Below, one piece after another: positions 406-24,520 of a stretch of 64,000 nt of DNA (its first letter is position 1; every line of letters begins with the position of its first letter). A model generated the notes under the pieces. The model was given only the letters and a program-made list of their open reading frames with translations, did no database searches and was not told where the DNA came from. The DNA comes from Crambe crambe (lineage: Eukaryota > Porifera > Demospongiae > Poecilosclerida > Crambeidae), in the NCBI GenBank assembly GCA_963924555.1, contig OZ004582.1:9271927-9335926 (forward strand). Reading direction: 5' to 3'. A program made the translations under genes and the position numbers.

Positions 406-812
406 ATGGCTTACTTTTTTGGTGGAAGTAGTGACTATGCTGACCAGCTACAAGATCAGGTTTGGCCGTATGCACAGTTATGGGAAGACAAAGCACGCCA
501 AGTGCGAGCCTACCTTATTGAAGTCTGGAAGGACAATAATCCACATCATAACGTGGAATCTACACTTGAGAATGTTATAAGGGAGAAAAATCTTGTATTA
601 GAGGTAGGTAGCAAAACACTATAGAATGATAATGGAGTTGTGACTTATTTCAGTGGTGGTGGAGTGAGAGATATGGGAGGTCCACACCACTGGACACTAC
701 CAGTGGAGCATTTGGTCAGTACCTATTAGATGAATATTGTGATGCACAAGGCTTGACCAAACCCGACAAGAGAGGAAAAGGACCTCGGCAATTATACCGA
801 ACATTACATTGA
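406..812 (+). CDS. small Trp-rich protein, family member 1 (118 aa, two coding exons)
   Basis: Exons 406-603 and 654-812 are separated by a 50-nt GT-AG intron in phase 0 and give a 118-aa protein. I chose the ATG at 406 because it follows the 5' UTR of the TATA promoter. The protein has no signal peptide or membrane span. It is rich in Trp and Tyr, with an N-terminal block (VWPYAQLWEDKARQVRAYL) and exon 2 opening with WWWSERYG. It ends in a basic KPDKRGKGPR tail. The same layout (Trp/Tyr helix-like block, intron, then [WY]W-x-x-K/R-Y, basic Pro tail) recurs in the genes at 1437, 3154 and 5628, so these are tandem paralogues. I recognise no known family. The function is unknown; an intracellular small protein is inferred from the lack of a signal. 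Confidence 0.7.
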
Positions 813-990
813 TTGATAGAAGTGACAGAACTGTAGCATAGCCTTACCATTTATACACACACCAAACAACCCTCATGACACTATAATACATTGAGTGTTT
901 TTAACATTTGAAAAAAAAATAATTTTTTTTTGCTATAATTTTGGATGAACGCTAGGGATTGAAGTTATTCCATTCCAGATATAACTCAAG

Positions 991-1257
991 GTGGAACCAG
1001 ATCACACAGAACTAGCTTTGGTCTCTACACCACAAGATTCCCATGACCTTTATGGGATTGAACTGACTGTGTATGGTACAATGAATAGGCTAAGACAGAG
1101 AATCGATTCATTATCAGTTAGCTTGGATGTGCATTATTGTAGCTCAGTTGCTTTGGAGGGACAACTATCGATGAATATGAAATTCTTATTAGAGCTACGT
1201 CATGTCGTACCTCGAAGGGTACTTTTCCATGGGAAATTGATGAGTCACTCTGCCTAG
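991..1257 (+). other. doubtful ORF of 88 codons between small genes
   Basis: An open frame lies between genes 1 and 2. It has no clear ATG context of its own, no recognisable domain and no resemblance to the neighbouring family. Just downstream is a direct repeat of a GGGCAGGC(G/A)TA motif at 1259-1292. It may be chance or an eroded mobile sequence. The rest of 813-1295 shows nothing I can name. Confidence 0.15.
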
Positions 1258-1295
1258 AGGGCAGGCGTATGTTCTAGGGGGCAGGCATACGTAGG

Positions 1296-1303
1296 TATAT
1301 AAG
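1296..1303 (+). promoter_or_regulatory. TATA box of the second small gene
   Basis: TATATAAG lies about 140 nt before the ATG at 1437, the same spacing as for gene 1. Confidence 0.5.
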
Positions 1304-1436
1304 ATGAGGTCCCACGGCAGAGAGACCTATCACTTTATCGAGGGTGCAAATAAAGTTTGTGCTGGGTAAAGTTTCAATTGTGTGCAGTAATTTTAGCTAG
1401 AGCTAGAACTTGGAATTTGAAAGAATTTGAAAGAGA

Positions 1437-1880
1437 ATGTCTTCTGTAAGTGCAACATACAGTATTATATTATAACATGATGGAAATTATTAACAACTTC
1501 AGTACTATGAGTTGCGAGATGAAGCATGGCACTATGGGGATTACTGGGGTGATAAAAGACGTTATGTGAGAGACTATTTGAAGAGGGTTTGGGTGGACAA
1601 GATGGACTGTGAGGACTCAGGCGACAGTGGCACTGAGGAAGCAGAACTTACCCTTCCAAATGTTAAGAAAGAAGCCATAGCTATATTGAAGGTATGCTAT
1701 TAATATTATTATTATTAATTTTTATTTCAATTTGTACTTCAGTGGTGGTGGACAGAAAAGTACGGGAAAAAAATTGAAAATTTTAATTACACTGCTAATT
1801 TTGGAGAGTTCTTGCTCCAGAGCTATAAAGATGCTCAGCGTGTGGATCTACCTAAACATGTTGGTCCAAAACCACGCTAA
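1437..1880 (+). CDS. small Trp-rich protein, family member 2 (111 aa, three coding exons)
   Basis: Exons are 1437-1445 (M-S-S), 1503-1691 and 1743-1880. All introns are GT-AG, about 50-57 nt, in phase 0. The start is a 9-nt coding exon after the TATA box at 1296. Exon 2 opens with YYELRDEAWHYGDYWGDKRR and carries RDYLKRVW, matching RAYLIEVW of member 1. Exon 3 opens with WWWTEKYGKK and ends VGPKPR, matching the WWWSERYG opening and basic Pro tail of member 1. A central acidic stretch of Asp, Glu, Ser and Gly is specific to this copy. There is no signal peptide. Similarity to member 1 across two exons shows duplication. The function is unknown. Confidence 0.72.
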
Positions 1881-2098
1881 AAGTAACTGATGGAAAGGAC
1901 AAAACAATTAGTTTATTAGTGTATTTCTTATTGGTCTCATTTTTAAAATTAAATGTCTATTTTCCACTATTAATCTTATACCGGACTCCGATACCAAACC
2001 CGCTTTAGATTCAGAACAAATAATCATGCAACAGAGGAATCACCGGATTCTAGATCTTAATTCCTCTTCCTCTTCCTCCTACGTGCCCCATTCATAAT

Positions 2099-2106
2099 TA
2101 TATAAG
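2099..2106 (+). promoter_or_regulatory. TATA box of the third small gene
   Basis: TATATAAGCC lies about 130 nt before the ATG at 2235. Confidence 0.45.
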
Positions 2107-2234
2107 CCGAGGGAAAGCAGTTCCACTTATGAATTAGTGGCTAGAAAAAAAGAAGTCATTCTAAATATTGAGAAAATCTTAGTAACTTGTTGGATTCAGC
2201 TGTTTTCTCTTTCACTATCATATCTTCGTGCATT

Positions 2235-2433
2235 ATGCCTCCAAAAGAGGTAAATTATTCCTAACAAATATAATATAAGTCCTTGTTTTTTTTGTTTTTT
2301 TTTTGAGCAGCTGTACATAGCCCTAGCCCTAGCAGCCCTAGCCGCCCTAGCCCTAGCCCTAGCTGGTAGCAGCACTCATGGACCAGTAGCTTCCAAACCG
2401 GATCACAGGGGAAAAAATCCAAGGACCAAGTAG
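2235..2433 (+). CDS. 45-aa protein with an Ala-Leu membrane segment encoded by a GCCCTA repeat
   Basis: Exon 1 at 2235-2249 encodes MPPKE and has a gtaaat donor. Exon 2 at 2311-2433 follows a T-rich acceptor in phase 0. Exon 2 reads LYIALALAALAALALALAG, a near-perfect 18-residue Ala/Leu hydrophobic helix made by GCC/CTA hexamer repeats. It is followed by a short tail containing KPDHRGKNPR. That tail matches the KPDKRGKGPR tail of member 1 and DHRGRGPR of member 4, so the gene seems to be a family member whose middle became a low-complexity membrane segment. It could be a tail- or signal-anchored micropeptide. A decayed pseudogene with an expanded repeat is the alternative. Confidence 0.5.
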
Positions 2434-3033
2434 TGACCATGCCAGAATGAAAAGACATAGTAAAGAATTCTTTAGTCTCCCCCTTGAAATTGTAAATTCA
2501 TAGCTAGCAATGGCTGAAAAACACTGACAGTATAGTTCATATTATACTTGTACTTTTTATAATGCTGCAATGTCTTGCTACAAAAAAAAAGTTCTCTTCA
2601 TATCGGCAATTTACTTCAGCGCTTCAGTGTAAATTAATTACTGGACGGGGAAATACTATTATAGCTAATTATTCATTCTCATTCCAAATAACCATTTCAA
2701 TTCCAATTGCTGATCCCAATATCAGTGTGAGACTGAATACAGTTTCTTAATATGGACTGAATATACATATGATAATGAGTCTATGGACGAGCACAACGGT
2801 TGTTCTATGAGGAGAAGTAGTCAGTAGAATAACAAGTGGCGAAGCTTTTGGATCGGAAGTGATGAGTGAAACTGGCGGGATTGGTGACCATGTGTTGTGC
2901 ACATGTCCCAACGAAGACTCCTCCCTACATTTCACAATAGTATCTACGTCATGACAGTCCGGAAACTCCCGAGGTCTTTCCCGTCTGCTATTATTAGCAA
3001 AAGGTAGGTGACGTGATCCTAACGCTACGTTGC
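2434..3033. other. intergenic stretch, no gene seen
   Basis: There are only short chance ORFs on either strand. An ATTGG box lies near 2880. Confidence 0.4.
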
Positions 3034-3035
3034 CG

Positions 3036-3045
3036 ATAAAAAGGA
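3036..3045 (+). promoter_or_regulatory. TATA-like box of the fourth small gene
   Basis: GATAAAAAGG lies about 115 nt before the ATG at 3154, the position seen in the neighbouring genes. Confidence 0.35.
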
Positions 3046-3153
3046 ACGCTGCCAGCTGCTCTACAAGAAGCCAGTCACAGCCTTCGTTGTTAGCATAAAA
3101 GCTGAAAATTTGTGCTGTTGAGAAAATTACTGTGGAATAATAAAAAAAAAAGA

Positions 3154-3646
3154 ATGTCTGATGTGAGTTGATTAGTTACTGCAAAATTTAATGCTCAAAA
3201 TTGCCCACTGCAGTACATTGACCCAAACACTGACCCCTTGCAGTACATTGACCCGAACACTGACCCCTGGGGGGCCATTTCAGATGCAGTCTGGGGCTGG
3301 ATGAGGAGGGAGTGGCTAGCTCACACCAATACAGTTTCTGTTCCAGATACTTACGAAAATAGGATTAAGGAATATCGTAATATCACTCAGGTGAATATAT
3401 GCTTTGCTTTAGTATATCACTCAGGTGAATATATGCTTTGCTGTAGTAGTTATCATCCTGTTCTAGCTACAACAATTAGTTGTTTAAAAAAAATTATTTT
3501 TCTAGTATTGGAATCAGAAGTACAAGTCAGCCACGGGAAATTACTACACAGCGGGACTTGATCCACTGGTATCTTGGCTGGGGACCGAGTACGATAGAGT
3601 TCGATTGGCTCCCCATGATCATCGTGGACGAGGACCACGCTTTTAA
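3154..3646 (+). CDS. small Trp-rich protein, family member 4 (about 99-109 aa, three coding exons)
   Basis: Exon 1 is 3154-3162 (M-S-D). Exon 2 starts at 3214 or 3244 and ends at 3390. Exon 3 is 3506-3646. All junctions are phase 0. Exon 2 reads YIDPNTDPWGAISDAVWGWM; exon 3 opens YWNQKYKS and ends DHRGRGPRF. The exon 2 acceptor region is duplicated in tandem (30 bp, 3211-3240 and 3241-3270), giving two in-frame acceptors ten codons apart. The donor region is also duplicated, with tcactcag followed by gtgaatatatgc at about 3383 and 3417. No signal peptide or known domain is present. Confidence 0.65.
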
Positions 3647-3904
3647 AGATGGCTAAGAGAAAAGGAAGAAGGAGCATGCTTTTTACTGCATACTGTACTT
3701 ACAGTTTTTATACATATTTATCCCCCTATTGTGTTCGTATTTTTATTGCTATTTTTAAAACCATTTTGTTTCTTAATGAAATCACTAAAAGCTGCAGTAT
3801 TGACATGTATATAACACATCAAGAGCTAGAGAGTTGGTCATAAGAAGAAAAAAAAAGGGTCAACCCAAACAGAGATTTGGTTGGCAGAAAATATGACCAG
3901 AATA

Positions 3905-4040
3905 TACCTCTATGGACCTACCCCCAGCCCTGGCCCTTAATAGTCCCATCCCTCCATAGCCCTAGTTCCAAGCCCTGGGCCTTAATAGTCCCATCCCTCC
4001 ATAGCCCTAGTTCCAAGCCCTAGGCCCTAGCAATCTATCT
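3905..4040. repeat. tandem duplication rich in CCCTA
   Basis: A unit of about 54 bp containing cctccatagccctagttcc occurs twice in tandem. It resembles the GCCCTA repeat inside the exon at 2311. Confidence 0.6.
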
Positions 4041-4508
4041 TTCAATATTGATTTTAATTAAAGCCAAGCTCTTTCAAAAGAGAGTTGACTGGCAATTCCA
4101 TTCCTTTGATGTGGTAGGCGGCTCCCTTTGATGTGGTCAATGGAATGTCACTACTAAACCACATCACCTGACCCCGATGTCTGTATCATACCCAAAAACT
4201 CATCAGATATGAGAGTGGCCATTGGCAGTGTTGGGAAACATGGTTAATTAGATGCATAATATCAGCATTGGAAACATGGTTAAGTTCAGCCATTGCAAGG
4301 TCTAAAAATATTTAAGAATCTAGTGCTTGCTCATCAGATATGAGATGTACAGTAGCCATTGGCAATGTCAGGGAACATGGTTAAGTTCAGATAATAGAGT
4401 CGTTTGCAAGGTGTCATCCAAATAAAAAGACCTAAAGCTTTGTTGAGATGACAGACTCTAGGCTAGCTCCATTTTTTATAGTCAGTCCAGATTTTATGAT
4501 GTAAATAC

Positions 4509-4974
4509 CTTAAGGTGGGTATTATTGGCAGCTACTAATTTTAGCGTTTTAAGGAGATACTGTATTTGGCGGGTATTAATTTTAGCTATTTTGAGCTTTG
4601 TGATTTTTTAAATGTAGGTTCGCTTCAGGCACACACAATATAATGCATTAGTTTAGCAAAGAGAATCTTCATTGGGAATAGTGATACTTCCATCTATGGC
4701 AAGAAAAAGTATGAGTCCTTGGTTTTGATGGGGAATTTGAAGATGCTACTGCTGCCTCCATGAAATCAGATGATAATGAAGTATCTGAAACAGACCATGA
4801 TGAAGACAACAGCGATCTAGCTAGCTAGCTAACTCTGCCAGGACACTCAAACAGCTAGCCTAGTTTGATACAGCTTTTACTTCTAATTATACAAAATTTT
4901 ATTATTAGCGCGTGCTAAAGGCCTACTCGCTAAATTCGCTAAATTAACAGGTCGCCAATAATACCCACCTTAAG
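4509..4974. mobile_element. non-autonomous DNA transposon with 21-bp inverted ends
   Basis: The left end (4509-4529) begins CTTAAGGTGGGTATTATTGG, and the right end (4954-4974) is its exact inverted copy. ATAC flanks both sides (4505-4508 and 4975-4978), a likely target-site duplication. The 466-bp interior holds only a short acidic reading frame near 4720-4830, with GFDGEFED and DHDEDNSD segments, perhaps a transposase scrap. Confidence 0.75.
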
Positions 4975-5238
4975 ATACATGTGTTAAATATAACACAAGA
5001 AGATGGCCAGTACTAATGTACTAGTGATAATGATATGCAGGTTCATGATTACCACCTTTTAGTTCCAATGACTTAGAAAAAAATTTTTTTTAAATAGTAT
5101 TGAAGTTTTTCTGCTACCACATGGTCACCCAAGTTGGCCACACCCATCTCAATTTATGAGGATGAGTTATTATTACCCGAGGACAGCCCTCGCCCTCCAG
5201 GCTGAGTTGATAATGCAAAGGTCATATAGCTAACCACG

Positions 5239-5360
5239 AGATGCAAAGAGACCAATCAGAATGAGTTACAAATCTGACCAATCAAATACAGCCAAAAACT
5301 GACCAATCAGACGGGAGTCATTAACCCAACACAAAGGTGCGCTGCTATTGGTGGAACTAT
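5239..5360. promoter_or_regulatory. cluster of CCAAT boxes upstream of the fifth small gene
   Basis: Three ACCAATCA motifs lie at about 5250-5320, followed by an ATTGG at about 5347, all within 110 bp and about 300 nt before the ATG at 5628. CCAAT is the NF-Y site; a regulatory role here is inferred. Confidence 0.4.
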
Positions 5361-5627
5361 ACCACCAGCCGCCTGTGTGTGCAAGCATGCAGGGTATGAA
5401 TAGGATCACAAATCCTCCCCTCCAGAGAATTCATCGGCTGGTAAAGACCTTGGGAAAACAGTGACGTCTGAAGGATTTCGCAATGATAAGACTTCAATTT
5501 AAGTTGCTAGTGATGCAAGACAGCAAGAGATTCTAAAGTGAGTGACATTTCAAGTTACTGCAGTCAGACTTAAAAAATCACTAGTGAAAAGATTAACTTA
5601 TCTTTTTTTTTTTCCTGCAATTGCAAA

Positions 5628-6034
5628 ATGGGCTTTGTAAGTAGTTCTATATCTAGTCGCTAAATTAATGACAAAATGAATTCTAAAATTTCCAGACTAT
5701 TAATCCGAATAATGAGCCCTGGGGGCATAGGACAGAGTGGATCTGGTCATGGATGGCACAAAAAGCTGATTTATATGAAAGTGATCATCACGGCATTACT
5801 AAGGTAAATTACATCCTAAACATAACAGCAATAACTGATTCAAAATTCAAAATTAGCAAGCTGAAGTGTCTCAATCATATTAGAGCTAGCAATTTCATTC
5901 TGTAATGTTTTTTTTTTGTTTGTTTTTTTGCATTTTTGCAGTATTGGTCAAAAGAATACATGAAATCATGTGGTGATAAGCCAGAAAAAGAAGACCTTAT
6001 ACGATGGTGCGAAGACCAGTATGACTCAAAGTAG
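5628..6034 (+). CDS. small Trp-rich protein, family member 5 (69 aa, three coding exons)
   Basis: Exons are 5628-5636 (M-G-F), 5696-5803 and 5942-6034, all joined in phase 0 by GT-AG introns. Exon 2 reads TINPNNEPWGHRTEWIWSWM, closely matching YIDPNTDPWGAISDAVWGWM of member 4. Exon 3 opens YWSKEYMKS and ends EDQYDSK without the basic Pro tail. At 69 aa it is the shortest Trp-rich member. No signal peptide or known domain is present. A possible noncoding upstream exon ends at a gtgagt near 5538. The function is unknown. Confidence 0.68.
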
Positions 6035-6181
6035 TAACTCATCACTTGTTAAGAACATTTTATACTACACCAGTTCATGCATAGTTTTCCCTCATTTTTT
6101 TTAAGCATCACTAATTTTTTTACAGCAGCTTAGTAACATATATTATAGTCTGGTTATTCATTATAGACACTTGCAGATTGT

Positions 6182-6185
<4 letters not shown>

Positions 6186-6230
<45 letters not shown>
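6186..6230. repeat. (CT)n microsatellite
   Basis: About 22 CT units. From 6235 to 7700 I see no gene: AT-rich tracts at 7020-7110, a dispersed sequence around tttgatgtggt at 6550 shared with 4100, and ATTGG boxes at 7395-7560. Confidence 0.85.
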
Positions 6231-6234
<4 letters not shown>

Positions 6235-7019
6235 TTCAGTAATACTTTTATAGCAGTTATTTTTATTCTTGTACTTTTTTATCACCTTTACTATAATAAT
6301 ATTAGCAATAAATTTAAAATACTGCAACTTATTTCTTGTTTGAACATTCTTCAGATATTTTCAATTAGCATATTTTGAACTGAAATATCATACATGGACA
6401 AATTAAACAATATAGAGTATATTAATTTCCCAATATTTATATCTAGACTGTTTGGATGAATGTGGTGTGGGCACACAAAATTTAACGCTCTCTTGTGAAT
6501 TCCAATTAAAGCCACCAAGTCTGAGCACGTTACTAACAGTCAGCTTCTCCTTTGATGTGGTGAATGGAACACCACTAAACCACATCAAAAGACTATCCAT
6601 GATGCCTGCACTATAACTATCCACAAAGCCTGCACCATATTATAATGCTTCTATCCATAATGCTTACACTATAACCCTGCACCATATCATAATGTCTCTA
6701 TCCATAATGCTTACACTATCACAAATAGCTCATTAACAAGCTTAATACAGTATAACCTGCCGATATTGTCTACTTGCATTCAAGCACCTAGAATAGGTAC
6801 TGCCTGGATTCAGTCAGGGAACGTTCGATTAAATATCACGAATGCATTAACTGCCAAGGAAACGTCAATAGATGTTTGTAAATTACTCCTGTGTGGAGCT
6901 GCCAACTCTACTTAGTTCAGGGACTAGAACAGCAAAAGATGGCATTATCCAAATGAAGCTACATCCACGGATCCACTGATTGATGACTTCTAGTTCCAGT
7001 TACAGAATTATTATTATGG

Positions 7020-7051
<32 letters not shown>

Positions 7052-7393
7052 ATATATTTTTATTTATTATATTATACTTATTTTTATATATTTACATTAT
7101 TAAATTATTTTTTGGAATCTACATGTCCTTCCCACCACACATAAAACAACTTCTGAAGTTCTTCAATTAAGTATATTCATGAGTCTGGGGATTTGGCAGA
7201 ACCATGGGACTGCTGAGGGCAGGACAAATACCTACTGTCCTAACCGACTTGTTTTGGAGTCCCCTGAGGGCAGATCCACCCAGAGGGCATAAAAAAAGGA
7301 AATAAAGCCAATAGAGTATGAATGCATTAAGAGAGACAAACTCAAAAGGTTGGGCCTATGAGCCTGTATAAACTATTTTAATTTCTCAATTTA

Positions 7394-7665
7394 TCACAGA
7401 GTTCTGATTGGTTGGTTGCTGTGAGATTTCTGATTGGCTGTTTTTCTGCATACCATATCCGCTACAGACTGGATAACTATGTCTGTGGCTGGTTAATTAG
7501 GAGGGAAGGGGGGGAATGCATACTCTAATCTGATTGGTCAGTCAAATCCAGTGCTGTCATTGGAGAGTTATTCCTCGTCAGGTCTGCTGCCTTCCATTCA
7601 GATGTGGAGACGGGAGGGAGGTCCTTGGAGTAAATTAGTTGCTTTAAGACATCAACCAATCAGAG
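7394..7665. promoter_or_regulatory. cluster of ATTGG/CCAAT boxes upstream of the CTIM gene
   Basis: TGATTGG-type motifs lie near 7400, 7432 and 7532, an ATTGG near 7558 and a CCAATCAG near 7655, ahead of the duplicated TATA region at 7730-7907. They probably serve the gene whose coding start is 8287. Confidence 0.4.
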
Positions 7666-7729
7666 CTTAGCTCGTGTCCAGCATGCGGTTGGGGGGATAA
7701 GGGTGGTGGTGTATATATCATTCCAACAC

Positions 7730-7907
7730 GAGATCCAAAGAAACACGTGCACAAGATATTGCGAAATCTGTGTGGATATAAATAGATCCGATAATGCAAA
7801 ATCATCCACATAGATAGAGAGATCCAAAGAAACACGTGCACAAGATATTGCGAAATCTGTGTGGATATAAATAGATCCGATAATGCAAAATCATCCAAAT
7901 AGATAGA
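7730..7907 (+). promoter_or_regulatory. tandemly duplicated core promoter (2 x 89 bp)
   Basis: An 89-bp unit, gagatccaaagaaacacgtg onward, occurs at 7730-7818 and 7819-7907 almost unchanged. Each copy holds an E-box CACGTG and a TATAAATA (7777-7784 and 7866-7873). A noncoding exon ending at 8156 follows, so the duplication likely doubles the promoter of the gene coding from 8287. Confidence 0.6.
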
Positions 7908-8244
7908 TCCACGTCTTCAAGGATTGACGTCATGATTGTTATCCTCTCCCGGGGAGAGCACCGAAAAAAATCCCTAATCCTTCTGGTCTTCTCACGAGAT
8001 CACCAAAATATCCCCCCTGCCGCTATGCGGGTCCATTAAAAGAGGTGGTACTATTGATGGCAGATCTATCTTTTTGGTGACCGGGAACATATTGCTTGCG
8101 ATCCACCAAGAATCCTTGAAAGCGTCGAAAGGCTCTCCTTCGTCTTGATATAACAAGTAAGTGCGCAAGAAAGTTAATTAATGAGGTAGAGATATAATGG
8201 AAGATGATTTAAAAAAAATTTTTTTTTAAATTTTGTCTTTACAG

Positions 8245-8799
8245 TTTTTATCTTTTTTTCTCTGCGAATAAAGACTGAAACAAGACATGGGGGTGAGTGA
8301 ACTCATACTTAATTAAATCATTCGTAGCATAGTACACCCTGTACGATTCACTGCAGCCACTAAAACACATTTTCACATCCAAAAAGAAATTAAAAATCCA
8401 TCAAAGAGTGCCACTATGACAGTACAAACACACTCACATACAAGAATTTACAAACATACACACAATGTCATGAAGACAAAAGATTTTAGAGACTTTGTCA
8501 TCTGGATCTCCATTCACTTAGAATCTCTTTCTTGGCTTTTCCTTTTGCATTAGAATGAGACTGATCTAACAACTGGATCTTCCAAACCCCCGACCAATCC
8601 ATCACCGGTAATGTCATAACATATAGACACGCCATTAAAACATCTAATGTGACTCATCAATGCTCCGTCCCCTTCCCACACACCAAAAAACCTCTCTCCC
8701 CTCACACAAACACCACAGATTGGCACACAAGTGATCCACTACGGCAATGAAGGTGGCGACCCCCGTCCATGGTGGCGCAAGTATTGCACAATCATGTGA
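8245..8799 (+). CDS. 46-aa protein ending in a CaaX box (CTIM)
   Basis: A 5' UTR exon ends at 8156 before gtaagt. The next exon is 8245-8292 with the ATG at 8287 (M-G), then coding exons 8554-8607 and 8719-8799; all coding junctions are phase 0. The 46-aa product has a Thr/Ser/Pro-rich middle (NETDLTTGSSKPPTNPSP), then a Trp-Trp motif and basic residues (PWWRKY). It ends C-T-I-M. Cys-aliphatic-aliphatic-Met at a C-terminus is the farnesyltransferase CaaX signature, and the basic residues before it are typical of membrane-targeted prenylated proteins. Prenylation is inferred from this motif. There is no GTPase or G-gamma domain, so it is not a known prenylated family. Confidence 0.6.
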
Positions 8800-9212
8800 A
8801 CGCTGAGAAGGACTTTAACTCTTAACACTTCAACCCTTTATTAAGTTTGTTACAAAATTATTATTAGTAGGTCATACAGAATGAAGAGAAAACTATACCA
8901 CTTCAATATTCATCACACTCACTTTTATTAGGCTATAAAATTAATCATAAACTTTACACACCACACATGCACCATCATTTTAGAATATTTTCTAATTGTG
9001 ACATCATTAGATTACCATTGGAGGATTAATGGACAGATCATTCTCTGATAGTTAAATAGTTTAGTTAGTGCAGAAAACTAGCATGAGTGGGCTGCCCTTA
9101 GATGAAGCATTTAATTGAACTAACAGCTCAAGTGTCTTGACAGTTATGACACCATTAGTAGCATGGATGTTCTCTAGTTAACATGGCTGGTAGATCAGGC
9201 TGGAAGAAGTCG
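8800..9212. other. intergenic stretch, no gene seen
   Basis: AT-rich, with no supported ORF, after the CTIM gene and before the TATAAATA at 9213. Confidence 0.4.
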
Positions 9213-10421: not shown

Positions 10422-10423
10422 AG

Positions 10424-11301: not shown

Positions 11302-11570
11302 ATGCTAGTAAGTGAATTTAAATACTGAAACTATGATTATAAATAGGGCACCAGTGCTGTAGAAAGGTTATTAGTCGATGCAATCTCTCTACTTGATGTG
11401 CAGGAGTGGCTCTGGAATATTATAAACTGGTTTTGGGAGATATATGATCCAGGAGGCATCCCAGAACACTGGGACAGTTATTTGCCATCATAGGAATAAT
11501 TCTCAGTCTACTATCATGTATTTTTTGTTGTTATAATAAACTCACACAACCAAATTGCAGATACTATTAA
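11302..11570 (+). pseudogene. membrane micropeptide gene, copy 1, frameshifted
   Basis: Exon 1 at 11302-11307 (M-L) ends at gtaagt; exon 2 starts at 11404. It reads EWLWNIINWFWEIYDPGGIP and meets a stop at 11491-11493 after about 31 residues. Against copy 2, one nucleotide is missing near 11483. Past that point the other frame still encodes the membrane segment (IAIIGII...) to a stop at 11570. Either it is a recent pseudogene, or a 31-aa amphipathic Trp-rich peptide is the real product. Confidence 0.5.
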
Positions 11571-12131: not shown

Positions 12132-12539
12132 ATGCTTGTAAGATATCTAAAAATACTTAAGACTATAAGGGGGCCAGACTACTGAGATTATAAGGGGGCA
12201 ATTCAGGGACCCAGACTACTGAGATAAATCTGGTTAGGGGGTATGCCCCCCTGACCCCCCACCTATGGGTCAGTGATGAGAGTAAGTTAGTCATACTCGT
12301 GGATCCCTTCTGTGCTAAGTTAATAACCCAATGAGCTGACCTAATATACTACTCTACTTGATGTGCAGGTGTGGTTCTGGAATATTATAAGCTGGCTTTT
12401 TGAGATATGCGGCATCCCAGAAGAATGGAAACAGTCTATTGCCATCATAGGAATAATTTTCAGTCTACTATCATGTATTTGTTGTATATTCCAATGTTGT
12501 AATGAACTCAAACAACCAAAGTATCGCAGATCCTATTAA
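12132..12539 (+). CDS. 58-aa single-span membrane micropeptide
   Basis: Exon 1 at 12132-12137 (M-L) ends at gtaaga; exon 2 is 12369-12539, phase 0. The product is 58 aa. It starts with an amphipathic Trp-rich stretch (VWFWNIISWLFEI), then a transmembrane segment (SIAIIGIIFSLLSCICCIF). A Cys cluster and a short basic tail ending KQPKYRRSY follow. The juxtamembrane Cys residues could be lipidated. It has the same minute-first-exon layout as its neighbours. No known family recognised. Confidence 0.6.
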
Positions 12540-16675: not shown

Positions 16676-16854
16676 CTTCTTGTATTTTCTCTTTTATATT
16701 CAGCTCAAAAATTCTTTTTAACCAATATTTTATTAAATTTTTGTTTATTTAATTTTTATAATCATCATAAAACCCTGAAGAAGGCTAGAGACATAGCCGA
16801 AATATTGGTTAAAAAGAATTTTTGAGCTGAATATAAAAGAGAAAATACAAGAAG
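16676..16854. repeat. 54-bp inverted repeat enclosing a hammerhead-like sequence
   Basis: The arms at 16676-16729 and 16801-16854 are perfect inverted copies. Between and overlapping them is CTGAAGA (16775), then stem GGCTA/TAGCC with a 6-nt loop, then GAAA (16799-16802). This is the core order of a hammerhead ribozyme, with one extra A before stem II. A related motif sits in the Penelope-like remnant at 41868-41949, so this is probably a terminal fragment of such an element. Confidence 0.5.
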
Positions 16855-16946
16855 TTTAGAATGTCAGCTGATAATGGATATTCATCATGTTAATTGTTTT
16901 CCCCTTTTTTCAGAGTTTGGAACATTGTGAAAGATTAATAGATGGC

Positions 16947-16949
<3 letters not shown>

Positions 16950-17005
<56 letters not shown>
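16950..17005. repeat. (TC)n microsatellite
   Basis: About 28 CT units in a row. Confidence 0.85.
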
Positions 17006-17011
<6 letters not shown>

Positions 17012-17337
17012 GTTGATTCCAGCAGTGAACAATCAGCTATAATTCAGCTATAATTATTTATATTGTCAGCTGCACAAGCACTTTATGATAAATTTATTTT
17101 AAAAAATAGATTTAAAAATTGGAATGAGAAGCCATTGAATGATTAATAATCATATTCATGAGCTACTTGAGCCTGAGGGCAGAAGAGGGGAGAAGGGGGG
17201 AGGGGACATGGGGAGAGGGGGGAGGGGATATATAGAAAGTCCAGTGAGTGTCCACCCCGGAGGGAGGAGGAGGAGGGGCCAGTCTTCAGGCTACATACCA
17301 TCCCTTATCGGCTTCAAGTGATTGAAAAGATCTGACC

Positions 17338-17515
17338 AATAGCAACACTCTCACTCAAGGAGCATTCTGATTGGTCACATCAGAAAGATTTCCACAAAGG
17401 CATTTGATTGGCTGAATCTTGCAAAGGATCTGATTGGATGGATGAGACAAAGAGTTAGACACACATACAACACACACAGAAGCAATCAGACAGACACAGG
17501 ATTGGTAGTATGCGG
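17338..17515. promoter_or_regulatory. cluster of CCAAT/ATTGG boxes
   Basis: One CCAAT (17336) and several TGATTGG-type motifs (about 17370, 17406, 17430 and 17500) lie just upstream of the TATAAAAA at 17550. Confidence 0.4.
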
Positions 17516-17549
17516 TCAACTGCATAACAGTGGCATGGAAGGGAAAGGA

Positions 17550-17666
17550 TATAAAAACACAGAGAGAGCCGCTATGCATGCATAAGGTGGATTAAAAATC
17601 AGAAGAGCTCCAGATAAATCTAGTGAGCAAGCAATTCAGCATGTCTGGCTATAGTATAGCTTCAAG
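17550..17666 (+). CDS. TATA box and candidate first coding exon (MSGYSIAS)
   Basis: TATAAAAA at 17550-17557 is followed by an ATG at 17641 in a frame MSGYSIAS that reaches a donor-like gtacaatt at 17667. The block agcctcaaggta is repeated three times (17660-17730). A possible second exon begins at 17796 after ctgctcag and would add about 17 codons. It resembles the other minute first exons, but no downstream exon is convincing. Confidence 0.3.
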
Positions 17667-18002
17667 GTACAATTAAATAGTAGAGCCTCAAGGTACAATT
17701 AGATAGAAGAGCCTCAAGGTAGAAAAGCATCAGTACTAAACCAGTCAAATTGGAATTAATTGATGAACAGGCTTGCTTAATTGGTCTCTGCTCAGATCAC
17801 ATCAACGGCTGGTGACTTTTCCAATTAACAATGATGGAATGAGATAATGATCTATCCACTCTTGGAACCGGAATGTAACTTAATAATGTAAATAGAGCAC
17901 GTGTCCGGCAGCTGTATGTGTACACTGGAGTCAGTCGGACCAATCAGATGTCTCATCCTAGCAAATGCCACGTCGCTAACTAACGGGACGTGGGGAGGTT
18001 GC

Positions 18003-18154
18003 GATAAAATGAGATTTTTTGCGGCTCAGCCGCAGTTGCAGCTCCCGCCATAACCACCCAAAAGAAGATACATCTCGCTGGAGATTAATTTCTGAGCCTG
18101 ATTGGAGGAGGGTTAACCTAATTTCGGAGAACATCTGAAGAAACCTTGTACAAG
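18003..18154 (+). promoter_or_regulatory. promoter and noncoding exon of the alternative-end CTIL locus
   Basis: A GATAAAAT box near 18004 and a CCAATCAG at about 17940 precede a noncoding exon that ends at 18154 before gtgagt. The next exon starts at 18429 after a (CT)n tract and carries the ATG. Confidence 0.4.
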
Positions 18155-18368
18155 GTGAGTGAGTGAGTACAAGAGACCTAACGAACTCTAGAATGGATAG
18201 CCAGTTATGTACCATAGTCAAGGCTCTTTTTTTGTTGAGCTTCTATCATAATTGTTCATTTATATTACCATTGGGTTTGATTTCTGCTATGTGCAATCTG
18301 CTTGCCAACAGAATAATACCAAAGCAGAATTTTCAGACTCATGGGAATTATTACAAATAGTTGTCTTA

Positions 18369-18427
<59 letters not shown>

Positions 18428-18428
18428 G

Positions 18429-18485
18429 TTTCATATCTGAATATCGCAAGTCATGGACCCTGTCAAAAAAGTACTAGACAGTGTG
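18429..18485 (+). CDS. shared ATG exon MDPVKKVLDSV
   Basis: The exon runs from the TAG acceptor at 18426-18428 to the gtaggt donor at 18486. The ATG at 18453 gives eleven codons ending in phase 0. Five possible terminal exons follow (18529, 19033, 19333, 19771, 20146), all opening in phase 0 after AG. No other ATG exon or promoter is visible between them. The simplest reading is one first exon with alternative last exons. Separate genes with unseen first exons remain possible. Confidence 0.55.
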
Positions 18486-18528
18486 GTAGGTCAAAAATAA
18501 CTTAAAAATACTCTATTTCTCATTTTAG

Positions 18529-18645
18529 CAAAATCATCAAACAAAATCATGCCCACCAAAGCCGAAACCAAACCCACCAAAGCCAAAGCCAAATCCACCT
18601 CGTCCTAATCCTTACCCTGGTCCTGGTCCAAAGCCACCCAAATAG
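18529..18645 (+). CDS. terminal exon A, Pro-Lys-rich without CaaX
   Basis: After a 43-nt intron, 38 codons encode a Pro/Lys/Asn repeat (PPKPKPNPPKPKPNPP then RPNPYPGPGPKPPK). There is one Cys and no CaaX box, so the product would be soluble, unlike the other ends. It would make a 49-aa protein with the shared first exon. The Pro-Lys repeat looks like a polyproline-type SH3 or WW ligand; this is inference. Confidence 0.5.
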   Translation, partial: QNHQTKSCPPKPKPNPPKPKPNPPRPNPYPGPGPKPPK

Positions 18646-19032
18646 GTCTCTTTACTGCTGCATTTTCCCAGACACCTTTTTAATGTATTTATGCTCATGC
18701 AGTGCCAAGCTTCATGTTTTAATCTCGTCAACTGAAACAAAACAGCATCCCCAAATTCCAAAGCATCTGTACTAAAAACTTCTATTTATTCATTTGTACT
18801 AACACAAGAGGCAGTATTTAAAGTCCCTATACACTTTTATGCATACGTATCATTTGTGTTTGAAGCATAGTCACTGCACTGCTGTAGTCATAGTCACTGC
18901 ACTGCTGTAGTCATAGCTACTGCACTAAATTTTACTGAGTAATACAATTTTTAAATCAATAAAAGATGAGCTTTAACTAAGAGATAGAAAAAAAAATTTT
19001 TAGCTGCATTTTATGCATTTTTAAATCTCTAG

Positions 19033-19124
19033 ACTAGTCATGGAGATGATCCTGACCCTTACCACCTCCACCTAAACCAGATAAACTTCAAGGAGAATCG
19101 TCATCCTCCTGTACCATCCTCTAG
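19033..19124 (+). pseudogene. terminal exon B, CTIL type, frameshifted
   Basis: It opens TSHGDDPDPY like exon C, then loses frame: relative to exon D four nucleotides are missing in the Pro run. The other frame still ends S-S-S-S-C-T-I-L at 19122-19124. In the joined frame it would read on to 19166 with an unrelated tail. Confidence 0.5.
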
Positions 19125-19332
19125 AGGAACAACCCTCAAGCTTACCCTAGACTACCCTAATTTTTAACTCGTTAAAATAGAAGTCACTGTATTTATGTTC
19201 ACTGCATCCCCTAACAACACAAAATAAAACTATCATTTTGTGCCCTCATACTTTAAAAAAAAAACTACATAATAACATGGGAAAATTTTCTTCTTTTTCA
19301 TTTATGTGTCTTTTTAATCTTAAAATCTCTAG

Positions 19333-19425
19333 ACTAGTCATGGCGATGACCCAGATCCTTATCCACCGAGAAGAGACAAAGATTCCAAGCTTAGCGAGTC
19401 AGCTTCCACCTGCACTATCCTGTGA
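19333..19425 (+). CDS. terminal exon C, CaaX CTIL
   Basis: Thirty codons open TSHGDDPDPYPP, continue through a charged segment (RRDKDSKLSESAS) and end C-T-I-L before TGA. Leu at the last position is typical of geranylgeranyltransferase I substrates. Joined to MDPVKKVLDSV it makes a 41-aa protein. The acceptor ctctag is identical to that of exon B. Confidence 0.58.
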   Translation, partial: TSHGDDPDPYPPRRDKDSKLSESASTCTIL

Positions 19426-19702
19426 ACAGACACATCCCAGCAAGCTGTTAACTCATCTATAATCTCTCTATACTAGTCAACTCTAAAATAACAGTGTGTC
19501 CTCTAAAACTAGTTCAACTGAACTCTAAAGTAGCAATGTGCTCTCTTCGTCTGTACTCTCTCTAGTGAACTCTAAAGTAGCAGTATATTCTCTAAAACTA
19601 GGTAGATCATTCTCCCTCCATAGCATATTATTTCATCATGTACATAACATAACTATGGCAACAACAGAATAAAATGCTTTAATCTACTTGTATATGAAGT
19701 TT

Positions 19703-19741
<39 letters not shown>

Positions 19742-19770
19742 ACACACAAACACACACACACACACCACAG

Positions 19771-19866
19771 ACTAGCAATGGCTGGAATCCAAACCCTTAC
19801 CCACCACCTCCACCTAAACCAGATAAACTTAAAGGAGAGTCTTCGTCCTCCTGTACCATCCTCTGA
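19771..19866 (+). CDS. terminal exon D, CaaX CTIL
   Basis: It follows (CT)n and (CA)n tracts and a cacag acceptor. Thirty-one codons open TSNGWNPNPYPPPPPKPDK, then a Ser-rich linker, ending C-T-I-L. With the shared exon it gives a 42-aa protein. The intact reading frame and conserved CaaX against a diverged middle argue for function. Confidence 0.58.
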   Translation, partial: TSNGWNPNPYPPPPPKPDKLKGESSSSCTIL

Positions 19867-20145
19867 ACAACTACTAACCCAAGAAACATTTAGTTTTTAA
19901 TTCAAAAACATTAAAAATAAAAAAACAGAATGAGGTAGTTCACTGTATGAATATATACATATATGCTATCTTCATTGATTTTATAAAGCTCATTTTTGAA
20001 ATTTTATATTCTTCAAAAAGACTAAGCTTTAATGGCAATAATAAATCCATTGTGGAAATCAATGAAAGGTCTATTGTTCATCAATTTTATCTTGAATGAA
20101 AGGACATGGTGTACTTTTTATTTATTTTTGTATGACTCTCTGTAG

Positions 20146-20232
20146 ACTAGTCATGGAGGTAGTCTACCCCGGAAAGATCCCAAGGACTCGAAAAGCACCA
20201 GTGGATCAACATATCAGTGCACCATTTTATAA
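20146..20232 (+). CDS. terminal exon E, CaaX CTIL
   Basis: Twenty-eight codons open TSHGGSLPRKDPKDSKSTSG and end Q-C-T-I-L before TAA. The acceptor is ctgtag. The N-terminal TSHG and C-terminal CTIL match exons C and D; the middle differs in sequence and charge. Confidence 0.57.
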   Translation, partial: TSHGGSLPRKDPKDSKSTSGSTYQCTIL

Positions 20233-20689
20233 ACACAACCTTCCCAACGGAATACCACGGACAGATAATGCTTAAGAAAATGGCTTTTAGTTTGAAGTGA
20301 CATATTAGTTTTTGTTCCTATAATTTTCGTTGTCATTAGCTTCTTGTTGTTGTTGTTGTTCTTGTTGTTATTCTTGTTGTTGTTTTAATGGATGAATACT
20401 TTGGATACTATATATATCTCAGGATATTATGAGTGTTATGCAGTCAGGGAAAAATAGGGGAGGAGTAGATGGGGGAGGGGCTTACTTATCACTACCATGT
20501 CCCAGCAAATAACTGCTCAGCATGCAATTAAAAAAAATTATTTTTTTTGAAAATTGAGCTTTAGGATATTCATAGATTATGTAGGCCTGAGGGATATTAT
20601 TTAGCTGCGGACAAGAGGCTGGACTGCCCTAATCTGACTACATCACATACTTGCCCCATACCACACAATATTTACACCACACACCACCA

Positions 20690-20890
20690 CCTGATGGATC
20701 ACACTGTCTAGAAGTGGATGGACCAATCAGATCACTGGATTTCTGTCTTGAAGTAGATGGACCAATCAGATCACTAGATTTTCTATCTTAATGTTGATTG
20801 ACCAATCACATCACTGGATTTCCTACCCTAAAGTTGATGGACCAATCAGATCACTGGATTATTGACCAATTAGATGACTGGATTTCTTTA
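20690..20890. repeat. tandem repeat carrying CCAATCA boxes
   Basis: Four to five imperfect units of about 47 bp, each containing gaccaatcagatcactgg, precede the locus at 21747. A related piece lies at 32820-32900. The repetition of an NF-Y-like site could be regulatory. Confidence 0.6.
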
Positions 20891-21455
20891 TTCTTTAATG
20901 GACTCCTTTCCTTAGCAAAAGGAACCCAATCAAAGCTACCCATTTGCCCCAGGGTACGGGTGTGCATCAATTACTTGGTTGGGGAATTAATTAAAGTACC
21001 ATTTAGCCACTCTCCTAGTCCCGCCTTCCCCTCCTGTTGAGGTGACAGAGAAAATATCCGGATGTGCTTAAAATAGTTATCATAACTCATGACGCACACT
21101 TGAATAGACCGATTGTTCTGATTGGACACCTGTTGTGCACTTCACACGCACAGGGCGATTAAAAAGTCATGATCGATGAATTTCCATCAGAGTTATCGTA
21201 CGCTGGGATTTCGTCACCTCATGTGACTGCATTTGAAATTTCCCCGTATCTGATCTGAAGGATGACGAATGTAGTTCCCCCGAAAGTTGTTTGCAGTGTT
21301 TTTAGCACTAAAGTACGCAAGATTCCGAACATTTGAGCATATTCATGCAGCCTTTCGGTCAAAGTTGAGTTTCGTAGGACTCTACGTCATGTTAGCCTAG
21401 CTATTATTAGAGACTAGTATTGCACAAGTCACTGTCGCAGAGATGAAGTAACGAG

Positions 21456-21566
21456 TATTTAAAGTGATTAACGAGATGCAGTTATGAAGAAGACCATTCG
21501 TTGAGAAAAGAGAAAAGACGACTCGGCTAAACGAAGAAACTTTACTACTACCCAGAAAAATACCAA
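21456..21566 (+). promoter_or_regulatory. possible promoter and noncoding exon of the Cys-His locus
   Basis: TATTTAAA at 21456-21463 is followed by an exon that would end at 21566 before gtgagt. The next acceptor is at 21746. Confidence 0.35.
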
Positions 21567-21746
21567 GTGAGTATTGCAAATATTTAGCAGTTAGCAGTCA
21601 GAGCGTGCTTCTGCAAAAAAGGCACAATAGAATAGAAGTCTGATAGACCAGTGAATTAGTTTAAAAAAATTTTTTTTGCATGTTGTCCAACCAAGAACAC
21701 TACAAAGATTTTTTTTAATGCTTTTTTTTTTTTTTTTGCACAACAG

Positions 21747-21786
21747 ATAGCACAGACTCTTCATTTCTCTCGGTGTCATGTCTGGG
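21747..21786 (+). CDS. shared ATG exon MSG of the Cys-His locus
   Basis: The exon runs from the acacaacag acceptor to the gtaagt donor at 21787. The ATG at 21778 encodes M-S-G in phase 0. Four phase-0 terminal exons follow at 22469, 23140, 23788 and 24308. No other convincing ATG exon lies between them, so alternative last exons are proposed. Confidence 0.5.
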
Positions 21787-22088
21787 GTAAGTGTCAGCAG
21801 AATAATGCACTTAGGCAACTACCACTGATAAATAATCAACCTCTAAGTGCCAGAAGTGCATACAAATCCTTTTTTCAAGGCAGTGGCTGACCTTTACCAG
21901 TGCAATATAAATATAGAATACTTACATGACCAATTAAAATATTGATATTGAACAACCAAATTACTGGTAAAAGATGTAACAGTTTTTAATTTGTGGCATA
22001 ATTCATCAAGAAAAGTCCATATGATGGGAAATAGCTGTGGCTTTTATTGTGTGTACCTCAGTGGAATGTAATTCAGTCATGAAAAATG

Positions 22089-22119
<31 letters not shown>

Positions 22120-22468
22120 CTCACTGATAATTTGTAACTACATCTGGATCACTATGGATCAACTCACTTCATTCAGCACTTGTCAATCAGAGCAACAGGA
22201 GAAGAAGCAGTCCAGTTGTACAACTCAATATCTTTGGGGGGAAAAAAAGAAATAAGGAAATAATTATTATAAAAAGGGGGAGGAAGGGGAGGAGAGGGGA
22301 GGAGGGAGGGGAGGGAAAGGAGGGGGAGGGGAGAGGAGGGGGAGGGGAGAGGGGGAGGACATGGTAACAGGACTAACATTGCACTTCATAGCCAGATATC
22401 ACCATGCCAACATGGTTGTATAACAGAGAAAGCTTATAATTAGTGCATACTAATATATTATTTGCTAG

Positions 22469-22753
22469 ATAAGATGCCACTTTGGTGACAGTGACCCTAT
22501 CTTCATAAGAGCCAAGTATATATGCGGACATGAATTCGACTTGTGTGAAAGGCATTATTACGAGTATGAGTTCTGTCCAAAGCGTGATAGGGGACACTTA
22601 AAGTACTGGCACTTGGAAGGCTTACCATTAAAACATAAAGTGGAATATACCTGTGGGCATGTGGTATCCATGAACAAGGACAACTTCACGAAGAAATGGA
22701 CTGAGTCCTGTCCTATCCATCCTAACGATGATGGTCAAAAAAGACTCATCTAA
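22469..22753 (+). CDS. terminal exon F, two-part Cys-His domain
   Basis: After ttgctag, 94 codons run to TAA. The first half has YICGHEFDLCERHYYEYEFC and the second has GHLKYW then VEYTCGHVV and CPI. Each half has a C-G-H followed by further Cys/His, a likely zinc-binding pattern, though not a RING or any Zn finger I can name. It shares its layout with exons G and H (about half the residues) and ends DDGQKRLI. The soluble location is inferred from the absence of a signal or membrane span. Confidence 0.6.
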   Translation: MRCHFGDSDPIFIRAKYICGHEFDLCERHYYEYEFCPKRDRGHLKYWHLEGLPLKHKVEYTCGHVVSMNKDNFTKKWTESCPIHPNDDGQKRLI

Positions 22754-22759
22754 GAGAGC

Positions 22760-22790
<31 letters not shown>

Positions 22791-22914
22791 AGAGAAACAT
22801 GATGAATTTTTACCCTTTGTTTTCTTAATATATTATTTATGATAAGGGACCATAGTTCATTGAAGTAATTTAATGTGCCACACTGAATCGGACTGGTAAA
22901 GGGTTATCACACAT

Positions 22915-23030
22915 ATGGTAAAGGGTGAACATACATGTGGTAAAGGTAGCTAGGTATACATACATATGGTAACACATATGGTAAAGGGTAGACATACACA
23001 GTATCATACATATATATGGTAAAGGGTTAA
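22915..23030. repeat. short repeats of catatggtaaaggg
   Basis: Four or five imperfect copies separate exons F and G. Poly-A (22090-22118) and GA (22757-22790) tracts and a purine-rich stretch (22275-22360) flank exon F. Confidence 0.6.
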
Positions 23031-23139
23031 AGTGTCATCAACTATATACATACTTGTGATGCGTCCATTAGTCTTCGTAGTGATACTCGATATATTTCAG
23101 CCTATAAGAAAATGATTGCAAGTCCTTCCACAATTATAG

Positions 23140-23442
23140 TGTTACTATGATGACGGCAACGCTGTGTACACAGTTGGGACCTACCTGTGTGGACATAGGA
23201 TAGACTTATGTCAATTCCACTTTGACCAAATCAAGCTTCACCACCATGATTACTGTCCGATACCCAACAGTGCATGTCACCAGAAAGGGCATTGGAAAAA
23301 TTGGCGACGTGGTGGCCCACCATATGCAAAGGAAGATGTCGAATATTCCTGTGGACATGTGGTTAGTTATGCATCTTATGCAGACTATCAAAGCAACAGG
23401 TATTGTCCGATCCTTAATGATGGCGGAGAGAAAAGGCTCTAA
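23140..23442 (+). CDS. terminal exon G, two-part Cys-His domain
   Basis: It opens CYYDDGNAVYTVGTYLCGHR after an attatag acceptor and has 100 codons in phase 0. It carries the shared pattern: YLCGH, then LCQFH, YCPI, GHWKNW, VEYSCGHVV, CPI and DGGEKRL at the end. An AATAAA follows near 23510. Conservation of the Cys/His set against variable loops suggests selection on the fold. Confidence 0.62.
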   Translation, partial: CYYDDGNAVYTVGTYLCGHRIDLCQFHFDQIKLHHHDYCPIPNSACHQKGHWKNWRRGGPPYAKEDVEYSCGHVVSYASYADYQSNRYCPILNDGGEKRL

Positions 23443-23787
23443 CTACTGTATGAGAACTGGCTACAGAAGAATTAACTTTAGTAAATAATTACTTTGTATA
23501 GAATGTACTAATAAAAAAGAGTGATTCTTTTTTTTATTTTTATTTTTTAAATTATTATTATTATTATCATTATAAAACTACTCACCTTGTCCACAATCAC
23601 ACTTGGGACTCAAACACTTCTTGAGAGACAGCTATATAAAGTAATAACAGACCTGTTACTAATAAAGATACCTATAGTGCCTAATCATGTGGATACAAGA
23701 TGAACCTGTCACTGTCAAAATGAGTACCCAATAACAAGAAACTGGGAACATTTTTATTAATTAATAGTATTTTTACATTCTTAACAG

Positions 23788-24057
23788 ACATGTGATTTTG
23801 ATTCCAACTCGTATTACACAACTGGTGAGTACACTTGTGGAGACACATACAGGATATGTAAGAGCCACTATGATGAAGAATACTGCCCCTCAAATGACAA
23901 AGGCCATTGGAAGTACTGGCAGTTAGCCGATACTCCGAGAACCCATAAGGGAGTTGAATATACATGTGGGCATGTGGTTGATATGTCCGAGAAAGACTAC
24001 AAGAAGAACAAAGATTGCCCCATCCTTTCTGACGATGGTGGAACAAAAAAGCTCTAA
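23788..24057 (+). CDS. terminal exon H, two-part Cys-His domain
   Basis: Following cttaacag, 89 codons open TCDFDSNSYYTTGEYTCGD and continue ICKSH, YCP, GHWKYW, VEYTCGHVV, CPIL and end GGTKKL. The first C-G-H is C-G-D here. GHWKYW and the VEYTCGHVV block are the best conserved parts of the family. Confidence 0.62.
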   Translation, partial: TCDFDSNSYYTTGEYTCGDTYRICKSHYDEEYCPSNDKGHWKYWQLADTPRTHKGVEYTCGHVVDMSEKDYKKNKDCPILSDDGGTKKL

Positions 24058-24307
24058 CTGATAACTGACCCAGTGAACAGGATATATAGCTAGTTGATAA
24101 TGACTTTGATATTCAGTTGAATTATATAGAACTCACATTTTATCTTGTACTGGATGGGTAACTAAAAGGCAGCTATTTTTCAGATAAAGGTCATCACTGT
24201 ATAAACTATAGATCTGGTAAGGGTCATCATGTCTGGTAAAGGTCGTCACTTATATGAACTTGATATATATAATAGGCATTCACTTTTTTCATCCCCAACC
24301 TCTGCAG

Positions 24308-24520
24308 AAGTCTACTGAAAACCACTCCCCAAGCCACACCCAACAGTCTCCAGGGGCAGCAGCAGCCCCGTCCACACTGCCTCCCTGTCCTGGGTGCAAG
24401 AAACGTGTCCCCACTAAGAATTTCAGCGACTTCCAATGCGGGACACACCCACTTTGCGAGGACTGTCGGAACAGACCTGAATGTCCTCAGCACATCGGAG
24501 CACGCAGAAGATTTTTCTAA
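24308..24520 (+). CDS. terminal exon I, minimal RING-like finger
   Basis: It starts after tctgcag in phase 0 and has 70 codons. A Ser/Pro/Ala/Gln-rich linker leads to CPGCKKRVP and then CGTHPLCEDCRNRPECPQH. The spacing C-x2-C-x12-C-x2-H-x2-C-x2-C-x5-C-x2-H resembles a very short RING with His as the last ligand, and the protein ends ARRRFF. RING fingers usually recruit ubiquitin-conjugating enzymes; whether this one can is unknown. Decayed or partial copies lie at 42732-42945, 32935-33000 and 27003-27050, next to the TRIM-NHL genes. Confidence 0.55.
   Translation, partial: KSTENHSPSHTQQSPGAAAAPSTLPPCPGCKKRVPTKNFSDFQCGTHPLCEDCRNRPECPQHIGARRRFF

Follow-up and report, generated by a model that had tools for sequence, protein, structure and literature searches.

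What does a row of very small genes, all on one strand and apparently always spliced in the same phase, amount to in a sponge genome? The question is raised by a 64,000-nucleotide (nt) stretch of the Crambe crambe assembly GCA_963924555.1 (contig OZ004582.1, here C3, positions 9271927-9335926; hereafter the window), in which an earlier note had seen minute start exons and short downstream exons that it thought might work as a cassette system for diverse small proteins. Drawing on gene models, homology and genome-wide searches that covered 143.1 megabases (Mb) in 119 contigs, we find that a cluster of small lineage-restricted genes describes the array better than a single cassette system does. 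At a probability of roughly 0.6, judged from sequence, this cluster would have grown by tandem duplication and decay, and two of its loci, CX and CH, would be alternative-last-exon genes.

Single start exons facing several last exons

Both loci consist of one minute start exon and a series of candidate last exons:

18453-18485, plus strand: CX start exon MDPVKKVLDSV, with GT donor
18529-18645, plus strand: CX1 last exon, proline-rich, without CaaX; 13-residue core like that of CX4 (E 3e-4 in 134 kb)
19033-19167, plus strand: CX2 last exon, frameshifted; a 4-nt gap relative to CX4 puts CTIL in another frame
19333-19425, plus strand: CX3 last exon, ends CTIL; homologous to CX4 and CX5
19771-19866, plus strand: CX4 last exon, ends CTIL; homologous to CX3 and CX5
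20146-20232, plus strand: CX5 last exon, ends CTIL; homologous to CX3 and CX4, with one weak candidate start exon ahead
21778-21786, plus strand: CH start exon MSG, with GT donor
22469-22753, plus strand: CH1 Cys/His last exon, homologous to CH2 and CH3, under constraint
23140-23442, plus strand: CH2 Cys/His last exon, homologous to CH1 and CH3; five candidate sites with ATG abutting GT ahead, in simple repeat
23788-24057, plus strand: CH3 Cys/His last exon, homologous to CH1 and CH2; no candidate start exon ahead
24308-24520, plus strand: CH4, possible last exon with RING-like Cys/His spacing

The CX start exon is followed by five phase-0 acceptors, each leading into a last exon with its own stop, and the CH start exon by four, leading into the three Cys/His exons and the RING-like one. 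Within the 1 kb before 18529 and before 22469, the MDPVKKVLDSV and MSG exons, respectively, are the only tiny ATG exons in any phase, and two scans found no candidate start exon ahead of CX2, CX3, CX4, CH3 or CH4, these being five of the seven last exons that lie further downstream. Because one start thus faces several same-phase acceptors, and for most of the last exons downstream no candidate start of their own was detected, exon choice within the CX and CH loci is likely, and to this extent the cassette interpretation stands.

The acceptor frames of CX3-5 and CH1-3 are set by homology and are independent of the gene models. When nonsynonymous over synonymous differences (pN/pS) were compared with those of codon-shuffled partners aligned alike, at most 9 of 200 shuffles were as low in eight of nine exon pairs. 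CX3-5 all begin TS[HN]G, every difference among their CTIL and stop codons is silent, and the C-terminal C-a-a-X of their predicted products appears to be under selection. An AATAAA or ATTAAA lies within 400 nt after all five CX exons, such hexamers being common in AT-rich DNA.

If this reading is right, the loci would be transcribed and spliced in the ordinary way, most genes of the cluster having one or two short exons joined to their minute start exon. Duplication at CX and CH would have placed further last exons behind a single start exon, and splicing together with 3'-end choice would select one of them. The start exon gives only 11 (CX) or 3 (CH) residues, so that a change of last exon would replace nearly the whole protein and, with it, any function the product may have; at CX the choice would also set a putative prenylation signal, present in CX3-5 and absent from CX1.

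Relatives of these exons are few. Seven weak outside matches to CX4 were considered as related CaaX arrays; the two inspected by eye (2/7) were both judged to be chance, and the candidate was dropped. A public protein search with the spliced CX forms gave 24 candidates, none of which reached E 10, the public protein set yielded no relative of CH1, and CH1-3 reached at best E 0.81 against PDB sequences. An AlphaFold2 fold for the Cys/His exon, built from three sequences, was too poor to use (mean predicted local distance difference test score 51.8). The CH4 spacing, C-x2-C-x13-C-x2-H-x2-C-x2-C-x5-C-x2-H, presumably fits the RING consensus, with His at the last ligand place; CH4 had no Pfam match over the cut-off, and its best PDB sequence match (E 0.27) was to an unrelated protein. 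Copies of the CH4 region lie at 27103-27251, 32928-33191 and 42660-43108 (91, 81 and 86% identical), among TRIM-NHL genes, the one at 42.7 kb being frameshifted as judged by eye.

The surrounding array and its families

The array of small, little-known genes spans about 32 kb on a single strand, from about -7.1 kb to about 24.5 kb of the window. Its previously proposed extent (406 to 24520) thus holds at the downstream end, near 24.5 kb, but its upstream end lies about 7.1 kb outside the window, and the gene at 406 lacks a tiny start exon. Apart from the two loci above, its listed members are:

-7100 to -6006, plus strand: threonine-rich gene model, start exon of ATG alone followed by three threonine-rich exons related to one another, phase 0 throughout
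406-603 and 654-812, plus strand: MAYFF, Trp-rich, no tiny start exon; frame common to MSS and MEEY, junction found in the public protein P0001
1437-1445 (start exon), 1503-1691 and 1743-1880, plus strand: MSS, Trp-rich; start exon end and donor as in MS and MPS, exons homologous to MAYFF and MEEY
2235-2249 (start exon) and 2311-2433, plus strand: MPPKE, a Leu-Ala stretch from a CCCTAG-type repeat, then the Trp-family C-terminal motif
3154-3162 (start exon), 3214-3390 and 3506-3646, plus strand: MSD, Trp-rich; last exon matches MEEY (E 0.001) and MAYFF (E 0.009)
5628-5636 (start exon), 5696-5803 and 5942-6034, plus strand: MGF, Trp-rich; exon 2 matches MSD (E 2e-5)
8287-8292 (start exon), then 8554-8619 (weak) or the CaaX exon 8719-8799, plus strand: MG locus, from open frames and acceptors only
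11302-11307 (start exon) and 11404-11493, plus strand: ML1, cut short by a frameshift relative to ML2 in a DNA alignment
12132-12137 (start exon) and 12369-12539, plus strand: ML2, hydrophobic Cys-rich peptide, from the model and its alignment to ML1

The 10 kb upstream of the window hold genes on the same plan, namely MS, MPS (clear duplicates of each other), MEEY, a signal-peptide-like relative and the threonine-rich gene, whose models start with MS, MPS, MEEY, a signal-peptide-like variant and an ATG alone and have all nine of their joins in phase 0. The next 10 kb further upstream hold ordinary genes. In the models, most array genes have a minute first exon, with one tiny exon per gene and remaining coding exons of 21-303 nt. 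The nine start exons of the window, of 6-33 nt, each with a GT donor matching the consensus at 6 or 7 of 9 positions, bear out the earlier count of at least eight such loci on one strand.

Five families are found at the locus: the Trp-rich genes (MS, MPS, the signal-peptide relative, MEEY, MAYFF, MSS, MSD, MGF and, by its C-terminal end, MPPKE), ML1/ML2, the CaaX exons (CX and possibly 8719-8799 behind MG), the Cys/His exons (CH1-3, with the RING-like CH4) and the threonine-rich upstream gene. Of the protein groups that had been described as unrelated, not all are separate; MSS, MPPKE, MSD and MGF belong to one family. MPPKE in particular had been taken for an unrelated membrane micropeptide; in 134 kb its exon has three non-self matches, all to C-termini of the Trp-rich family, PDHRGKNPR-like (MAYFF, E 0.05; MEEY, 0.24; MSD, 0.47), a placement made by three weak matches at one family position. 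Nor are all loci intact, ML1 and CX2 being frameshifted relative to their sisters. The possible CaaX exon at 8719-8799, an open exon with an acceptor that ends CTIM and is in phase with the MG start exon, had been overlooked; the array as a whole has no excess of CaaX motifs (10 on the plus and 10 on the minus strand, with 8.1 and 7.5 per equal length elsewhere).

One junction is matched outside the window. P0001, a public predicted protein, is identical to MAYFF at 96 of 114 residues and has the MAYFF exon 2/3 join exactly where it was predicted, and read-through of the 50-nt intron would meet a stop; P0001 is the product either of a spliced RNA or of an intronless copy. The Trp-rich profile found three public proteins, each on a 2374-base contig; in one of them, P0002, the MEEY intron is retained.

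In whole-genome protein searches, relatives were confined to this locus except for ten weak matches at E 0.006 or worse (seven with the CX4 query, two and one with two other queries, and none with the rest). ML2 found nothing but ML1 and itself at E < 0.5, the threonine-rich gene had no relative elsewhere in the genome at E < 0.25, and none of 14 tested array proteins passed the Pfam cut-off. Within the limited sensitivity of these searches, what we find are tandem duplicates without relatives beyond a narrow lineage, as in a taxon-restricted cluster.

The Leu-Ala segment of MPPKE (2318-2363) is made of CCCTAG-type hexamers matching long telomere-type arrays near contig ends, and a telomere-type hexamer has apparently been taken into a coding exon here. 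At the contig ends sampled, the terminal repeat is TAGGGC rather than TTAGGG, of which there are 0-1 per 2 kb. C-rich units fill the first 2 kb of seven of nine large contigs sampled (C3, C5, C6, C8, C9, C10 and C11) and G-rich units the last 2 kb of six of eight (C3, C5, C6, C8, C9 and C15), which is the telomere orientation. Speaking against TAGGGC as the telomere repeat, the C1 start has 10 units and the C1 end none, at the C12 start and the C10 end there are about 206 units in reverse orientation, and three short contigs sampled (C2, C4 and C7) have none. A search with the vertebrate telomerase RNA model gave nothing at E 10; an Amphimedon telomerase RNA is reported in an excerpt of PMC8480181, and among the excerpts returned by a literature search we recognised no paper reporting a TAGGGC terminal repeat.

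The array sits among animal genes. Upstream, it is bordered by a BORCS5/LOH1CR12 gene and two transporter-like genes named by eye. On the minus strand its neighbours are TRIM-type proteins with RING, B-box, filamin and NHL domains (one tested by Pfam), including a cluster of about six similar TRIM-NHL reading frames at 25399-51822, one of them Pfam-checked. The window also holds a minisatellite at 38448-38914 (unit about 34 nt), a reading frame with Psq and Tc5-type transposase DNA-binding domains at 48740-49306, a minus-strand frame at 54874-55989 weakly like the LRRC8 pannexin-like region (23.9 against a Pfam cut-off of 25 bits), and a unit of about 1.48 kb in three tandem copies, seen by eye, at 56570-61000.

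Splice phase, start regions and rival explanations

The cassette interpretation had been drawn from GT-AG introns that were always in phase 0. All 29 modelled joins are indeed in phase 0, and the 20 that lie within the window are all GT-AG, but the models were built so as to stay open, which makes the uniformity partly circular. For MS, MPS and MSS the phase is fixed independently of the models by a common start exon end and donor (TCT followed, across the splice site, by GTAAGTGCAA) with one in-frame codon difference, and for the MAYFF exon 2/3 join by its match in P0001. In Amphimedon ribosomal protein genes, phase 0 is given by an excerpt of PMC3412847 for 52% of 285 coding introns and as the commonest phase in sponge genes; against that background, seven or eight independent introns (a count set by judgement) would all fall in phase 0 with p about 0.01 to 0.005. 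An ATG, at most 11 codons and a donor in phase 0 arise by chance 0.92 times per kb and strand. With about half of sponge introns in phase 0, and close to one tiny ATG exon per kb to be expected by chance, a uniform phase 0 carries little weight as evidence, and equal phase within one locus is what tandem exon duplication yields.

Tiny start exons can be assessed in the same way. Across 13 loci, the kilobase ahead of the first acceptor holds 26 distinct candidates, of which 17 are in phase 0 against a background of 36% (p = 0.002), a count biased by the choice of these loci for having a tiny start exon; once the 13 modelled exons are removed, 4 of 13 candidates are in phase 0, as in the background. 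The pattern is at best a modest enrichment, and the start exons of MG, MPPKE and MGF are without individual or independent support. As modelled by eye, the BORCS5/LOH1CR12 gene, an ordinary neighbour just before the array, has an apparent ATG-only start exon, and one transporter-like neighbour has no tiny start exon. A TATA-like box at -119 to -166 of MAYFF, MSS, MPPKE and MSD was rejected as a common feature, the pattern being missing within 400 nt in 7 of 15 start regions and occurring 0.92 times per kb overall.

A common start cassette is likewise rejected. Among the best 20 of the 105 pairs formed by 15 start regions, the clear matches all lie within families: z is 54 for MS/MPS, 20 for ML1/ML2, 6.5 for MPS/MSS, 4.9 for MAYFF/MGF and 7.2 for MPS/MEEY, where the similarity lies mostly far ahead of the start. 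MAYFF/ML1, the best pair across families, reaches z 3.1 with a score of 147 against a maximum of 137 in 60 shuffles, an excess expected now and then among 105 pairs.

That exons of different loci are joined in cis or trans into many proteins is accordingly the least credible reading and, we think, very improbable: beyond matching phases and a shared strand the combinatorial system finds no support here, start regions of different families have no clear homology, phase 0 is common anyway, and public protein searches, a weak test, gave no product joining two loci. A precedent in its favour is mod(mdg4), which trans-splices onto alternative 3' exons as described in an excerpt of PMC12692577. Cross-locus exchange is the part of the cassette interpretation that finds no support. 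It is also improbable, if less so, that CX and CH are plain tandem genes in which each last exon has its own unrecognised start, with a weak donor or a longer or untranslated first exon. The weak candidate before CX5, the five before CH2 and TATA-like matches in some intervals, at about background frequency, could be taken that way, but neither scan offers anything ahead of the other five downstream exons. Some weight, though well short of a serious challenge, goes to the view that tandem gene duplication left the downstream last exons behind without the start exons they once had, so that CX1 and CH1 alone are in use, if any last exon is. Frameshifted CX2, truncated ML1 and the lack of a polyadenylation signal within 400 nt of CH1, CH3 and CH4 all suit decay, whereas CX3-5 and CH1-3 retain frames, acceptors and mostly low pN/pS, and the CTIL codons vary only silently.

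Several observations count against our preferred reading of a duplicated cluster with alternative last exons at CX and CH. The whole-genome protein search was insensitive, the CX4 query missing CX1 and CX5 and the MSS query missing MS, MPS, MSD and MGF; the MAYFF/MSS pair gives no sign of constraint when set against its shuffles, 31 of 200 being as low; P0001 might derive from an intronless copy; and only one of four CH exons, CH2, is followed within 400 nt by AATAAA or ATTAAA. In Amphimedon, moreover, 98% of alternative first or last exons are backed by at most two assembled transcripts according to an excerpt of PMC4432959. By the same account exon skipping is rare there, and alternative terminal exons, at 22.1%, rank second among the classes of splicing event.

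Known systems and the origin of small genes

CX and CH have the layout of alternative-last-exon genes, a shared 5' exon with several same-phase last exons that have their own stops (five at CX, with CX2 frameshifted, and four at CH). Drosophila mod(mdg4) and lola similarly have one 5' part facing several same-phase last exons, but theirs encodes a long constant domain, whereas the constant part is 3 residues at CH and 11 at CX. Genes of the CDC42 type have alternative CaaX-coding last exons, and there, as predicted for CX, the last exon decides the lipid anchor; CX differs in its products of about 40 residues with no known Pfam domain. For mod(mdg4), trans-splicing is described (PMC12692577, in excerpt), whereas CX and CH are known from their sequence. 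Schistosome micro-exon genes, as an excerpt of PMC10526429 presents them, make fast-changing small proteins from very short exons of whole codons, a likeness to the array. They differ in having many micro-exons (3-81 bp), long introns and secreted proteins; here there is one tiny exon before ordinary exons rather than many internal ones, and a signal-peptide-like exon in one modelled gene only. Tandem arrays of orphan genes share with this array local duplication, decay, the lack of Pfam matches over the cut-off and few or no public relatives, and differ in that several families here sit in one locus with one gene style.

Young genes duplicating locally in a gene-dense genome, an ordinary process, seem to have given rise to an unusual form, namely alternative-last-exon loci with almost no constant part. 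Tentatively, and at odds we would place below even, one promoter and a start exon of 3 or 11 residues may drive the choice of last exon, a single gene then giving several almost wholly different small proteins with a lipid anchor switched by exon, so that splicing would exchange the protein itself and not just one end of it; the hydrophobic segment of MPPKE, from a telomere-type hexamer repeat, suggests that repeat DNA may be a source of new exon bodies. If true, the locus would be a compact test case of new-gene origin, in which promoter, start codon and donor are reused for duplicated or repeat-derived exons.

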